From the NCBI RefSeq assembly GCF_023238205.1, contig NZ_CP096659.1:2621626-2685625 (forward strand): a DNA stretch of 64,000 nucleotides, read 5' to 3'. The position numbers were made by a program, and so were the translations under genes. Positions 39,149 through 43,531 of this stretch are shown one piece after another (position 1 is the stretch's first letter; each line of letters opens with the position of its first letter). The notes under the pieces were generated by a model. That model ran no database searches. It worked only from the letters and a program-made list of their open reading frames with translations, and was not told the DNA's origin. The DNA comes from Halorussus limi. Its GTDB lineage: Archaea > Halobacteriota > Halobacteria > Halobacteriales > Haladaptataceae.

Positions 39149-40252
39149 CTACTCCCACCAGTCACTCTGTCGCTCACCGTCTCCACTGTCGACGAACGGC
39201 TCGGGCAACTCGTCCCCGCTGAGGCCCATCGCGTCCGCCAGCCAGTAGCCGACGTGCCACCCAATCGCGTCCACGTTTAGGTCGCGTAACTTAATCTCGT
39301 AGTCAGCGAAGTACTCGGGCGCGCCGTCGGTGTCCGTATCGTACACCCAACTCAGCCCACACGACCCCTCACGTACGCGCTCACCCCCGCAGTCGAACGG
39401 GTCGTCTGCGAAACTGATTCGCACGTCCGCCGCCGACCGGTTCGAAGTCGTCACGAACGACACGTTGCTCGGAACTGAGCCTTCTGCGCCAGACTCGTAG
39501 TAATCGAGGGCGTGCCGAATTTGCGTGCGAGCGTCCTCGCGGTCGTGGCCCGGAAGCGCCGACACGTCGACGTAGACCGAAAGCGTGCTATTTCGCCACG
39601 GGACTGCACGGTCAGCGATGTCCGCCTGAGAGAGGTAGGTGTGTTCCGCTATCGCTTGCATCGTCGGCATCGGCTCCTCCCCGTGTTCGAGGCCGACGAC
39701 GTGTCCGAACTCGTGTTTCAGAATCCGCCTCGTGGACTCGTTCGAGTAACCCGCGACGACCCTGACTTCGACGGAGTCGGTTGGCGTCTCCCACGCGTCG
39801 AGTACCGGCGCACATCCGACCGTGGAGTTGGTGTCTCCACCGCCGCACTCCGAAATTCCGGCGACGAGTCTGACGGTGATGTCCGCTTCGTACACGTTCG
39901 TCGTGGGGACGAACGTGACGTTGTACTCCGCGTACTGGCTCCCGTTACCGTTCCAATACGTCAGCGTCTGATTCACGAGCGGTTTGACGTTCCGCGACTG
40001 GTTGACGGTGTTCCACACCGCGACCGTCACGTTCTGTTCTCCCCACGGGTTCTCGACCTCCTTCTCCTGGCTGGTCGTCGTTTCCTCTGGGGTCGTCGCG
40101 CTCGTAGTTGGAAGTGACTTGGTCGTCGTAGTCGGGTCGACCGACGAAGTCGTATCTCGTGTCGTCGACGTCGGCGTGGTCTCCTGAACCGCGCCGCTGC
40201 ACCCGGCGAGAAGAACGAGGCCGACGACAGCCACCACCCGCTTGTCCAACAT
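39149..40252 (-). CDS. Matrixin-like zinc metalloprotease lipoprotein with degenerate second domain
   Basis: 367 aa. Lipobox LLAGC with Cys18, so it is probably anchored outside the cell. A Thr/Ser-rich linker occupies residues 24-66. Domain A (74-190) is a matrixin-type zincin with HEFGHVVGLEH at 180-190, which supplies three His zinc ligands and the catalytic Glu181. Domain B (223-344) repeats the same layout: VYVDV strand, TTSNRSAADVRISF, a Cys pair (C288/C298 against C136/C147 in A). Where A has the zinc helix, B reads GYWLADAMGL, so it has no active site. B is likely a structural or substrate-holding pseudo-domain. The upstream region holds two GACAG-type palindromes. Confidence 0.85.
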   Translation of the reverse strand: MLDKRVVAVVGLVLLAGCSGAVQETTPTSTTRDTTSSVDPTTTTKSLPTTSATTPEETTTSQEKEVENPWGEQNVTVAVWNTVNQSRNVKPLVNQTLTYWNGNGSQYAEYNVTFVPTTNVYEADITVRLVAGISECGGGDTNSTVGCAPVLDAWETPTDSVEVRVVAGYSNESTRRILKHEFGHVVGLEHGEEPMPTMQAIAEHTYLSQADIADRAVPWRNSTLSVYVDVSALPGHDREDARTQIRHALDYYESGAEGSVPSNVSFVTTSNRSAADVRISFADDPFDCGGERVREGSCGLSWVYDTDTDGAPEYFADYEIKLRDLNVDAIGWHVGYWLADAMGLSGDELPEPFVDSGDGERQSDWWE

Positions 40253-40347: not shown

Positions 40348-40381
40348 TTTTGTGTCCCTCGGAAAGACGGTAAAACGGGAG

Positions 40382-40453
40382 TGGACTCGTCGGGATTTGA
40401 ACCCGAGGCCTTCCCCGTGCCAGGGGGATGATCTACCGCTGATCTACGAGCCC
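40382..40453 (-). tRNA. tRNA-Ala (anticodon GGC)
   Basis: On the minus strand, the acceptor GGGCTCG (5' end at 40453) pairs with CGAGTCC near the 3' end, and the discriminator is A (complement of 40382). The D arm is GATC with AGCGGTA. The anticodon loop CTGGCAC lies in the stem TCCCC/GGGGA, giving anticodon GGC (reads GCC and GCT). The T arm is TCGGG-TTCAAAT-CCCGA. CCA is not encoded and no intron is present. A probable promoter, TTTATC, lies about 35 bp upstream (40490 region). Confidence 0.95.
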
Positions 40454-40663
40454 TCGTACGCATCTCTTCGTTGGCCGGGGTTACTGATAAACCTCTCGGA
40501 TTCTATCCACCAGCGAGCAGTGACCTGAGGCAGGCCGGGATGCTGATTTGAGGCACCTCGGTGCTCGATCGAGAAGCGGACGGCGATGCGCCGTAGAGAC
40601 GCACCAGCGCGCCGAGACTCGATTGGCGAAACCTGCTCGACTCGCGCGAGTAGATTGCAACTC

Positions 40664-40670
40664 TTAAATA
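40664..40670 (+). promoter_or_regulatory. TATA box upstream of rps15
   Basis: TTAAATA, the only strong TATA-like box in the region, predicts initiation near 40692. It is followed by an inverted repeat CCGTAC (40674-40679) / GTACGG (40692-40697) covering the start site. The resulting leader would be about 190 nt. The alternative, a start close to ATG 40883, lacks a TATA box. Confidence 0.6.
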
Positions 40671-40708
40671 CCTCCGTACAATTTGCAACACGTACGGGAA
40701 CAGCACAG

Positions 40709-40832
40709 CCGCAAATCTGACTCGTCGGGGACTCGCGGGCGTCGCCCGCCCGCGACCGAGGTCGTTCGACCTCGCCTCTTTCCCGACTCGGGATTGCGGA
40801 CGTGCGCCGCGTCAGACCGACGCATCAGCACG
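40709..40832 (+). ncRNA. Candidate structured leader RNA of rps15 (three-way junction)
   Basis: Stems found by hand. A: 40709-40717 pairs with 40792-40799 (8 bp, one bulged A). B: 40725-40731 with 40780-40786 (7 bp, one G-U). Inside B are two hairpins, C 40733-40740 with 40748-40755 (8 bp) and D 40757-40763 with 40768-40774 (7 bp, GTTC loop), together a three-way junction. A separate hairpin follows: 40801-40805 with 40828-40832 and 40809-40813 with 40819-40823. It sits between the promoter and the S15 start. In bacteria S15 represses its own mRNA by binding a structured leader, so autogenous control is a natural hypothesis; an independent small RNA is the alternative. Confidence 0.5.
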
Positions 40833-40882
40833 CCTACCTCACAATCGGCGATAGCGGCCTGTGCAGTTCCAATCAGAAAACT

Positions 40883-41350
40883 ATGGCACGAATGCACACC
40901 CGCCGCCGCGGCTCGTCCGACTCGGACAAGCCAGTGGCAGACGAACCGCCGGAGTGGAGCGACGTAGACGAAGACGAAATCGAAGAGCGCGTGGTCGAAC
41001 TGGCCGAGCAGGGTCACAGCCCGAGCCAGATCGGCCTGAAGCTTCGCGACGAGGGCGTGAAGGGCACGCCGATTCCGGACGTGAAGCTGGCGACCGGCAA
41101 GAAGGTCACGGAGATTCTCGAAGAGAACGACGCCACCGGCGAAGTACCGGAGGACCTCTACAACCTGCTCGAGCGGGCCGTCCGCCTGCGCGAACACATG
41201 GACGACAACCCGCAGGACGCCGCCAACAAGCGCGCGCTCCAGAACACCCAGTCGAAGGTCCGTCGCCTCGTGGACTACTACCGCGGCGACGAACTCGACG
41301 AGGACTTCACGTACTCCTACGACACCGCCAAGGAAATCACCGAAGGCTGA
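40883..41350 (+). CDS. rps15: Ribosomal protein S15
   Basis: 155 aa small-subunit protein that binds the central domain of 16S rRNA. Archaeal-type N-terminal extension (ARMHTRRRGSSDSDKP) and the WSDVDEDEIEERVVELAEQG helix precede the S15 core with SQIGLKLRDEGVKGTPIPDV, RLREHMDDNPQDAANKRALQ and KVRRLVDYYR. The length is normal for haloarchaea. ATG 40883 begins the archaeal MARMH start; the upstream frame to 40802 is leader RNA. It is the first gene of a unit with the RecJ-like paralog, pcc1 and rps3ae. Confidence 0.96.
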   Translation: MARMHTRRRGSSDSDKPVADEPPEWSDVDEDEIEERVVELAEQGHSPSQIGLKLRDEGVKGTPIPDVKLATGKKVTEILEENDATGEVPEDLYNLLERAVRLREHMDDNPQDAANKRALQNTQSKVRRLVDYYRGDELDEDFTYSYDTAKEITEG

Positions 41351-41355
41351 ACTGA

Positions 41356-42579
41356 ATGTCCACCTCGGGTCGAAGCGGAACCGGTGACGGGCGAGCCTCC
41401 TCGGCCAGCGACGCGGCCGCCGAACTGCGCGAGGCCGACTTCGTTCGCGTTCTCGCGCGCGCCGACGGCGACTGCCTCGCGGCGGCCGGACTGCTCGCCC
41501 GCGCGTGCGCCGAGCGCGGCGTCCCCTATCAGGTTCGCGTCGGGCGATTCGGCGAGACGCTCGCCGACTCGGACGAATCCGGCGACGAAGACGCGGACGC
41601 CACGGTCGGCGTCGGTCTCGACGCCGCGGCCGACGTTCACCTGCCGGCCGAGGCGACGCCGGCGAGCGTGACCGCCTTCGACGTCGCGGGCGAACTCGGT
41701 GCGACCCCGAACGCCGCGCTGGCGCTCGCGGGGGTCGTCGCCGCAGGCCACCCCGCAGGGTCGGGCGAGAGCGCACACGTCCTCGAACGCGCACGCGAGG
41801 CGGGCCTCGAACCCCGGCCGGGCGTCGGCGTGCCGACTGAGGACCTCGCGGACGGTCTCGCTCACTGCACGCTCGCGCACGCCGAGTACTCGGGGGACAC
41901 CGAGGCCGCGCAGGCGGCGCTGGCCGAACTCGGTCTGCCCGCCGAACTCGACGAGGCGGCCCACCGCACGGTCGCCTCGGAGTTCGCACTCGCGGTCACG
42001 GGTGTCGAAGCCGCGACCGACCGCGCCGCGGAAGCGGTCGAGCGCGCGCTTCAGCCCCACGCGATTCCGGGCGGCGGGTCTGGCGACGAGTCCGACAGCA
42101 CCGATCCGGAGGACGTGAGCGCGCCCTTCGCCACGGTCGAAGGCTACGCCGACGTTCTGGACGCCGTCGCGCGCGAGCGACCGGGCACCGGCGTCGCGCT
42201 GGCCCTCGGCCACGACGCGCGGGACGACGCGCTCGACGCGTGGCGCGGCCACGCCGAGCGCGCCCACACCGTCCTCCGCGAGGCCACGACGGGCCGGTAC
42301 GACGGCCTGTTCGCGCTCCGGACCGACGACGCCCCCGTGGAGACGGTCGCCCGTCTCCTGCGGGACTTCCGGTCGCCCGAACCCGTCGCGCTCGTCGTGA
42401 GCGAGTCCGAGGCCGCCGCGTTCGCGGTCGAGGATTCGGCCGTCGGCGCGGCGATGACCGAGGCCGCGCGAGCGGTCGACGGAACGGGCGGCGGCACGCC
42501 CGACCGCGGTTACGCCCGGTTCGACCCCGAGACGGACGCCAAGGAGTTCCTTTCCGCGTTCCGGGAGGCCAGACCGTGA
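41356..42579 (+). CDS. RecJ-like DHH paralog lacking the catalytic motifs
   Basis: 407 aa. Weak but clear resemblance to DHH-family nucleases. ARADGDCLAAAGLLARACAE corresponds to the first motif (normally HxDxDG), and a DVGVGLD-like strand (ATVGVGLDAA) to the second. The DHH triplet itself is missing, and the later VGVEAAT/GHPAG regions are diverged. Catalysis is therefore unlikely. Inactive RecJ paralogs are known as structural partners in archaeal replication (GAN/RecJ and Cdc45 relatives), which fits but is an inference. It lies 5 bp after rps15 and overlaps pcc1 by 4 nt, a conserved-looking haloarchaeal order. Confidence 0.75.
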   Translation: MSTSGRSGTGDGRASSASDAAAELREADFVRVLARADGDCLAAAGLLARACAERGVPYQVRVGRFGETLADSDESGDEDADATVGVGLDAAADVHLPAEATPASVTAFDVAGELGATPNAALALAGVVAAGHPAGSGESAHVLERAREAGLEPRPGVGVPTEDLADGLAHCTLAHAEYSGDTEAAQAALAELGLPAELDEAAHRTVASEFALAVTGVEAATDRAAEAVERALQPHAIPGGGSGDESDSTDPEDVSAPFATVEGYADVLDAVARERPGTGVALALGHDARDDALDAWRGHAERAHTVLREATTGRYDGLFALRTDDAPVETVARLLRDFRSPEPVALVVSESEAAAFAVEDSAVGAAMTEAARAVDGTGGGTPDRGYARFDPETDAKEFLSAFREARP

Positions 42580-42899
42580 CCGACCGTCGCGCAGACTCCG
42601 AGGAGTCGGCCGGGCGTTCGGCGACCGTTCGGACGGAACTCGACGACGCCGAGATTCTGGCGGCGTCGGTTCGCCCGGACAACACGTCCGAAATCGACAC
42701 GCGGGTCGAGACGGACGACTCCGGCGTCGACGGCGACGCCGAGGACGCCGGGACGGTCGTGACGACCGTCGAGCGCGAGACGACCGGCGGCCTGCGGACC
42801 ACGGTGGACGACTACGTCGTCAACCTCGCGGTGGCACAGCGAGTCGTACAGGCAGGCAAACGATTCACAGCAGACGAAGACACAACAACTCAATCATGA
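42576..42899 (+). CDS. pcc1: KEOPS complex subunit Pcc1
   Basis: 107 aa. Pcc1 forms the dimer core of the KEOPS complex, which makes the t6A37 modification of tRNA. The family core reads ATVRTELDDAEILAASVRPDN, then VVTTVERETTGGLRTTVDDY, VVNLAVAQRVV. An acidic insert (residues 45-60) is haloarchaeal. GTG 42576 overlaps the RecJ-like stop by 4 nt, and the stop overlaps the rps3ae ATG by 4 nt, so translation is coupled through the whole unit. Confidence 0.9.
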   Translation: MTDRRADSEESAGRSATVRTELDDAEILAASVRPDNTSEIDTRVETDDSGVDGDAEDAGTVVTTVERETTGGLRTTVDDYVVNLAVAQRVVQAGKRFTADEDTTTQS

Positions 42900-43531
42900 G
42901 CGAACGATCCGTATCCAAGCAGAAACAGGAGAAGCGGTGGTACACCATCCACGCTCCCGAGCAGTTCGACCGACAGGAGCTCGGTGGCACCCCCGCAGAC
43001 GAACCGGACAAAGTTCTCGGCCGCAACATCGAGACGACGCTGGGCGAACTGAAAGGCGACGCCAGCGAGAACAACACCAAGCTCACGTTCAAAATCAACG
43101 ACGTGGGGAGCGACGCGGCGTACACCGAGTTCATCAAGCACGAACTCACCCGCGACTACCTGCGGAGTCTGGTCCGCCGCGGTGCCTCGAAGGTCGAGGC
43201 GTACATCACGGTCCTGACGACCGACGACTACCGCGTCCAGATTCAGCCCGTCGCGTTCACGACCAAGGACGCCGACGCGAGCCAAGAGCAGGCGATTCGC
43301 CGGACGATGATCGACATCGTGGAAGAGGCCGGGAAGGACCGCACCTTCGAGGACCTCATCGACAGCGTCGTCGAGGGTCGACTCTCCTCTGCCATCTACG
43401 GCGAGGCCAAGACCATCTACCCGCTGCGCCGCGTCGAGATTCAGAAGGCGACGCTGGAAGCCCGTCCCGAGGAGGTCGCCGCCGAGGAAGAGACCTCCGT
43501 CGACGTGGACGAGGAAGAAGTCGAAGTCTGA
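42896..43531 (+). CDS. rps3ae: Ribosomal protein S3Ae
   Basis: 211 aa archaeal/eukaryotic small-subunit protein. Recognised by KRWYTIHAPEQFDRQELGGT, then GRNIETTLGELKGD, KVEAYITVLTTDDYRVQIQP and FEDLIDSVVEGRLSSAIYGEAKTIYPLRRVEI. The acidic ending (EEETSVDVDEEEVEV) is typical of haloarchaea. It ends the rps15 unit; a T-rich stretch follows at 43552-43563. Confidence 0.96.
   Translation: MSERSVSKQKQEKRWYTIHAPEQFDRQELGGTPADEPDKVLGRNIETTLGELKGDASENNTKLTFKINDVGSDAAYTEFIKHELTRDYLRSLVRRGASKVEAYITVLTTDDYRVQIQPVAFTTKDADASQEQAIRRTMIDIVEEAGKDRTFEDLIDSVVEGRLSSAIYGEAKTIYPLRRVEIQKATLEARPEEVAAEEETSVDVDEEEVEV

Follow-up and report, generated by a model that had tools for sequence, protein, structure and literature searches.

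The DNA directly upstream of rps15 in Halorussus limi, analysed here within a window of 64,000 nucleotides, is a ribosomal-protein leader of RNA family RF03143, a family already described in 2020, and we consider with moderate confidence that it most likely operates as a two-state autoregulatory switch. Its 5′ strand (arm A) is complementary both to a local 3′ strand (arm B) and to a conserved distal strand close to the start codon (arm C), and the two complementarities are mutually exclusive. All coordinates are those of the window, and features lie on the forward (+) strand unless stated otherwise.

The gene for archaeal 30S ribosomal protein S15 (40883–41350) was identified by matches to PF08069, PF00312, and NF006331 (206 bits), and these Pfam and NCBIfam matches place its ATG at 40883. 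The remaining genes of the operon (41356–43531) encode a RecJ-like protein, the KEOPS subunit Pcc1 (42576–42899), and 30S ribosomal protein S3ae (42896–43531). The RecJ-like gene (41356–42579) scored 24 bits against an NCBIfam cut-off of 360 and had no Pfam match; it is possibly a degenerate RecJ paralogue. Upstream of the leader, a tRNA-Ala(GGC) gene (40381–40453) separates it from a divergent gene on the reverse (−) strand (39149–40252), a possible secreted metalloprotease with a Pfam Peptidase_M10 match.

A TATA box, TTAAATA (40664–40670), is located about 215 bp before the S15 start, as the first-pass annotation had proposed. Similar TTTA-like boxes occur 28–34 nt 5′ of a conserved GGGAA in approximately 140 of 159 haloarchaeal rps15 leaders, and because of this spacing the transcription start is placed just before GGGAAC (40696). 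The leader predicted from this inferred start (40690–40882) agrees with the earlier estimate of about 190 nt, the distances being correct and the TATA spacing and the fold being in accord. The conserved TATA spacing suggests that the RF03143 copy may be transcribed together with rps15.

Folded as RNA, positions 40664–40900 reach −97 kcal/mol compared with −74.8 ± 4.9 kcal/mol for shuffled sequences (z = −4.5; equalled by 0 of 200 shuffles). Every element drawn earlier by hand recurs in the predicted fold: the closing stem and the second stem, the pair of apical hairpins, and the hairpin that comes after them. A cmscan search identified RF03143 (S15-Halobacteria ribosomal protein leader) at 40694–40805 with 66.4 bits, above the gathering score of 49 bits and across the full model (1–66). 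This was the sole match in 40450–41400 at E-values up to 1, and neither the RF03137 (S15-Methanomicrobia) model nor any bacterial S15 leader model in Rfam matched the region at that threshold. The authors who predicted RF03143 (Eckert and Weinberg, 2020; PMC7247131) list it in Halobacteria for rpsO, accompanied by recJ and rps3ae, and the gene context found here, with rps15 at 40883 followed by the RecJ-like, Pcc1, and S3Ae genes in a member of the Halobacteria, fits that description.

The family is present in 37 of 40 relatives; of 292 haloarchaeal genomes drawn from across the class, 288 carry it, and the control genome of Haloferax volcanii also has it. In three genomes without RF03143 (G032, G034, and G308), another gene immediately precedes rps15 and leaves no space for a leader; in G085, which likewise gave no match, the contig is cut and the leader is visible in part only. 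The gene ahead of rps15 in the former three, which belong to divergent haloarchaeal lineages (L268, L230, and L269, respectively), reads like an rdgB/HAM1-type gene.

The part of the leader that S15 would recognize is likely the internal loop GAC/UUG with its flanking helices. Its putative 5′ half (40716–40731) contains a GAC that matches the 16S junction and comprises UCUGACUC together with GUCGGGGA, which is the upper stem's 5′ strand; the putative 3′ half (40780–40793) comprises the 3′ strand of the upper stem followed by UCGGGA (consensus CUUGGGA), as delimited by the Rfam alignment and comparison with 16S rRNA. In the Rfam SSU alignment, the junction of the genome's own 16S rRNA reads ..GGC-UUG-GGG.. 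and ..CCC-GAC.., and in the RF03143 consensus GGC-UUG-GG and CC-GAC flank the internal loop. The core (GAC/CUUGGG) appears to resemble the h20-h21-h22 junction, a likeness judged by comparing the sequences that is clear for the family consensus but partial in the window's copy, where UCG and CU replace UUG and CC. Imitation of the 16S junction by the leader was also pointed to by Eckert and Weinberg (2020; PMC7247131). In our reading, the leader helix beside the internal loop may occupy the place of h22, with the strand order permuted.

Beyond the upper stem, the window carries an apical insert of 49 nt with two GC hairpins (40733–40755 and 40757–40774). The stretch between the arms measures 66, 42, or 20 nt within the genus, and because the insert varies in length at this level, the apical three-way junction is neither part of the conserved core nor the S15 junction. 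The three-way junction drawn earlier by hand is therefore a dispensable, variable insert outside the core. The broader proposal of the first-pass annotation, a structured and probably autoregulatory S15 leader, has gained a match to a curated Rfam family, near-universal occurrence ahead of rps15, a covarying core helix (see below), and resemblance to the 16S site; it loses, together with the junction, the remark that no described archaeal case was known to it, since both RF03143 (PMC7247131) and the autoregulation of archaeal L7Ae (PMC6298567) were known. Taken as sequence evidence, these features suggest that S15 probably uses the RF03143 leader to limit its own production.

Arm A (GGAAC-A-GCACAGCCGC; 40697–40712) is the shared 5′ strand. 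Arm B (UUGCGG-AC-GUGC; 40794–40805) is its local partner in the helix modelled by Rfam and identified by the Rfam alignment and covariation. The Rfam model stops at 40805, and arm C (GCGGCCUGUGCAGUUCC; 40854–40870), which ends 12 nt before the AUG, lies outside it and was missed by the first-pass annotation. Its complement is GGAACnGCACnGCCGC, at the 5′ side of the leader, the strand that also pairs locally in RF03143. Arms B and C need the same bases of arm A, so that the A:B and A:C helices are mutually exclusive except for the outer GGAA:UUCC. Arm C follows the consensus GCGGyCnGUGCnGUUCC in all 159 haloarchaeal leaders and ends at a median of 11 nt (range 8–37) from the AUG; its exact pattern has a single occurrence in the genome. 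Arm C is new relative to the Rfam model, and it may already have been noticed in the supplement of the 2020 paper. Between arms B and C lies a hairpin (GCGUC/GACGC; 40809–40823), which is general in the family (fold z about −3) and whose sequence is not conserved. A partner for arm B in this interval, seen in Halorussus, had a mean z of +0.2 family-wide and was rejected as a family feature. At the positions equivalent to 40867–40882 in L006, L023, L092, and L137–L150, a conserved UAUCCUCAA directly before the AUG replaces the CAAUC that follows GUUCC.

An unrelated small RNA is a very improbable reading, and so is a long leader in which S15 plays no part. Our literature search, which returned neither a follow-up paper on RF03143 nor an experiment on S15 binding or regulation, including any biochemical binding test, is compatible with such an RNA, but its conservation upstream of rps15 across the class, the short distance from arm C to the AUG, the 16S-like core, and the absence of the leader where rps15 directly follows another gene all argue against it.

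The pairing of arm A with each partner was assessed across relatives. The first-pass annotation had proposed a search for compensating changes in the stems, and this search revealed that the core A:B helix covaries: several pairs covary beyond every tree-based simulation, and both sides change in four of 10 pairs. The A:C duplex is the stronger of the two in 157 of 159 leaders (mean −25.2 kcal/mol vs. −17.3 kcal/mol for A:B), with a z of −4.1 against shuffled arm C. When 25 distinct haplotypes were compared, the paired share of A:C cells was 97.4%, which no shuffle equals. Both sides change in one of 14 A:C pairs, and most variation consists of G-U wobble. When arm C sequences were exchanged, a leader's own arm C fitted its arm A better than foreign ones (−0.92 kcal/mol, P = 0.009, with one sequence for each of 39 distinct A strands), and the same swap test applied to B:C as a reversed control gave P = 0.998; the clade-level version of the A:C test did not reach significance (P = 0.08–0.18). 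In a lineage with GGGAAGC, the helix mismatch is shifted by one position, with a G opposite (20 of 20 sequences), and the upper A:C helix is partly lost in a few lineages (Halobacterium, L264–L266). The A:C pairing is probably real on this comparative evidence, with compensatory support that is modest because both strands are nearly invariant.

Some of these observations would also fit a simple S15 leader without a switch, in which S15 on the local fold would itself obstruct the ribosome, and arm C either pairs with arm A through the GGAA:UUCC closing stem only or is conserved for another reason, for example ribosome contact. GGAA:UUCC is nearly invariant and compatible with the A:B helix, the variation in A:C is mostly one-sided, and the state of the leader affects the start codon weakly in silico. 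The most informative test of selection on the A:C pairing, at arm A positions 12 and 13, however, speaks for the full A:C helix. The Rfam fold leaves position 12 without a partner; position 13 can pair with arm B in 56 of the 159 leaders, whereas its pairing with arm C, by G-U, A-U, or G-C, holds in 152. The dinucleotide at these positions covaries with arm C, AG going with CCU, CUC, or CUU, GA with UC or UU, and GG with UC, and the two positions are paired with arm C in 133 of 136 cases (two tree-based simulations gave P = 0.010 and P = 0.002). The simple leader would, moreover, leave arm C's GCGG and GUGC segments without partners, and in Methanomicrobia the corresponding arm pairs exactly with the strand of the S15 site. 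We regard the simple leader as possible but doubtful, and prefer the switch.

Under the two-state switch, arms A and B would pair locally in the first state, giving a stem with an internal loop in imitation of the 16S rRNA junction to which S15 binds, and this state would be bound and held by free S15. In the second state, without S15, arm A would pair with arm C just before the AUG, joining the 5′ end of the mRNA to the start region and breaking the full S15 site. Excess S15 would thereby release arm C and reduce the output of rps15 together with that of the recJ-like, pcc1, and rps3ae genes. That S15 binds, which state is ON, and how the final step proceeds are all inferred; autogenous control suggests A:B as the low-expression state, and in the final step arm C might fold onto the start codon, or the 5′ end might be left unpaired.

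Folding calculations place the two states close together. With the full leader and the first 45 coding nucleotides, and with energies that refer to 1 M NaCl at 37°C and not to a molar-KCl cytoplasm, the forced AB and AC folds of 149 genomes differ by −1.1 ± 3.2 kcal/mol and lie within 5 kcal/mol of each other in 126. Without forcing, the minimum-energy fold corresponds to AB for 91 of them and to AC for 50. Masking arm B costs 8.5 kcal/mol of stability in the real leader vs. 11.8 kcal/mol when arm C is shuffled. Free arm C might directly hide the start codon: it forms 5.8 expected pairs with the start region compared with 4.1 after shuffling, yet the change in accessibility is small, the start codon being unpaired with a probability of 0.41 in AB and 0.46 in AC, so that AB is slightly less accessible.

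The output might alternatively be reached through A:C protecting the 5′ end from decay. A switch acting on mRNA stability or transcription instead of initiation, by hiding the extreme 5′ end from 5′–3′ decay or, in Methanomicrobia, by termination at a U-run, would suit an arm A that begins a few nucleotides from the predicted transcript end. It would also suit the hairpin and UUUU between arms B and C in Methanomicrobia, where poly-U was noted by Eckert and Weinberg (2020; PMC7247131). Arm C, however, lies beyond the U-run and would be made too late to prevent termination there, and the haloarchaeal leaders examined have no conserved U-run. This explanation seems to us unlikely, slightly more so than the simple leader, and the two-state switch set out above remains the preferred reading.

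Two further features upstream of or within rps15 were observed. In family f19 (probably Methanosarcinaceae), neither S15 leader family was found in the loci scanned (L231, L233, L235, L237–L241, L246, L247, L293–L298, L301, L307, L310, L317, and L318). A different conserved element is present there 70–200 nt before rps15, with CACUUCGCCA near the expected transcript start followed by a hairpin, whose stem varies with pairing kept (UAUCAGG/CCUGAUA, UCAAGUUAA/UUAACUUGA, ACAGG/CCUGU, UUAUCGAAC/GUUCGAUAA, and UCAGGUUG/CAACCUGA) and whose loop is conserved (UCUCCCAAnGUUC). This element matched no Rfam family and is a candidate for an undescribed rps15 leader. Within the coding region, the codons after the rps15 start are invariant or nearly so (GCA in 159 of 159, CGA in 157 of 159), although only some 8% of the Arg codons of S15 are CGA. 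Met-Ala-Arg starts, both here (40883–40891) and in eL15 genes (L177–L206), read ATG GCA CGA nearly without exception. A role of GCA CGA in RNA pairing was rejected, since all eight complete eL15 Met-Ala-Arg starts share it, which indicates a general start preference.

The leader itself is already known, having been predicted in 2020, and the present analysis adds a concrete, testable mechanism for it. To our knowledge, few regulatory RNA switches have been established in archaea, and translation control on leadered haloarchaeal mRNAs without a Shine–Dalgarno site is, as far as we know, poorly understood. Two short, conserved, mutually exclusive arms make the mechanism amenable, in Haloferax volcanii, to single mutations and their rescue, with results that should be easy to interpret.

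Bacterial S15 (rpsO) leaders mediate S15 autoregulation by imitating 16S rRNA, with a different architecture, and the E. coli S15 leader has alternative structures. The archaeal L7Ae leader is similar in that a ribosomal protein regulates its own mRNA through a 5′-leader structure thought to depend on the protein for folding, but it combines a K-turn with L7Ae instead of a 16S junction with S15 (PMC6298567). The closest known system is RF03143 as published (Eckert and Weinberg, 2020), which is the same RNA with the same gene and operon context and core, its curated threshold being passed here; to that model, the window adds arm C with the alternative pairing and the 49-nt two-hairpin apical insert. 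The Methanomicrobia S15 leaders (RF03137, clan CL00121) have the same core strand (..UCCGAC.. / ..UUGGGAUU..) and, further downstream, likewise contain an arm able to pair with the core's 5′ strand. Their Rfam model ends at GGGAUUAC, after which each of the 25 leaders examined has a hairpin, a short U-run, and finally GGACUUAC, or a sequence very like it, that forms 7–9 bp with the core strand GUAAGUCC. They differ from RF03143 in having a true three-way junction, with two hairpins beside the core, and a hairpin and U-run before an arm C that lies at a variable distance from the AUG, between about 25 nt and well over 100 nt; control of the start codon is therefore not general and not the whole story there. 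We lean slightly towards the view that both archaeal S15 leader families contain an undescribed second 3′ arm that rivals the S15-binding fold for one 5′ strand, and would thus be protein-operated two-state switches across haloarchaea and Methanomicrobia.
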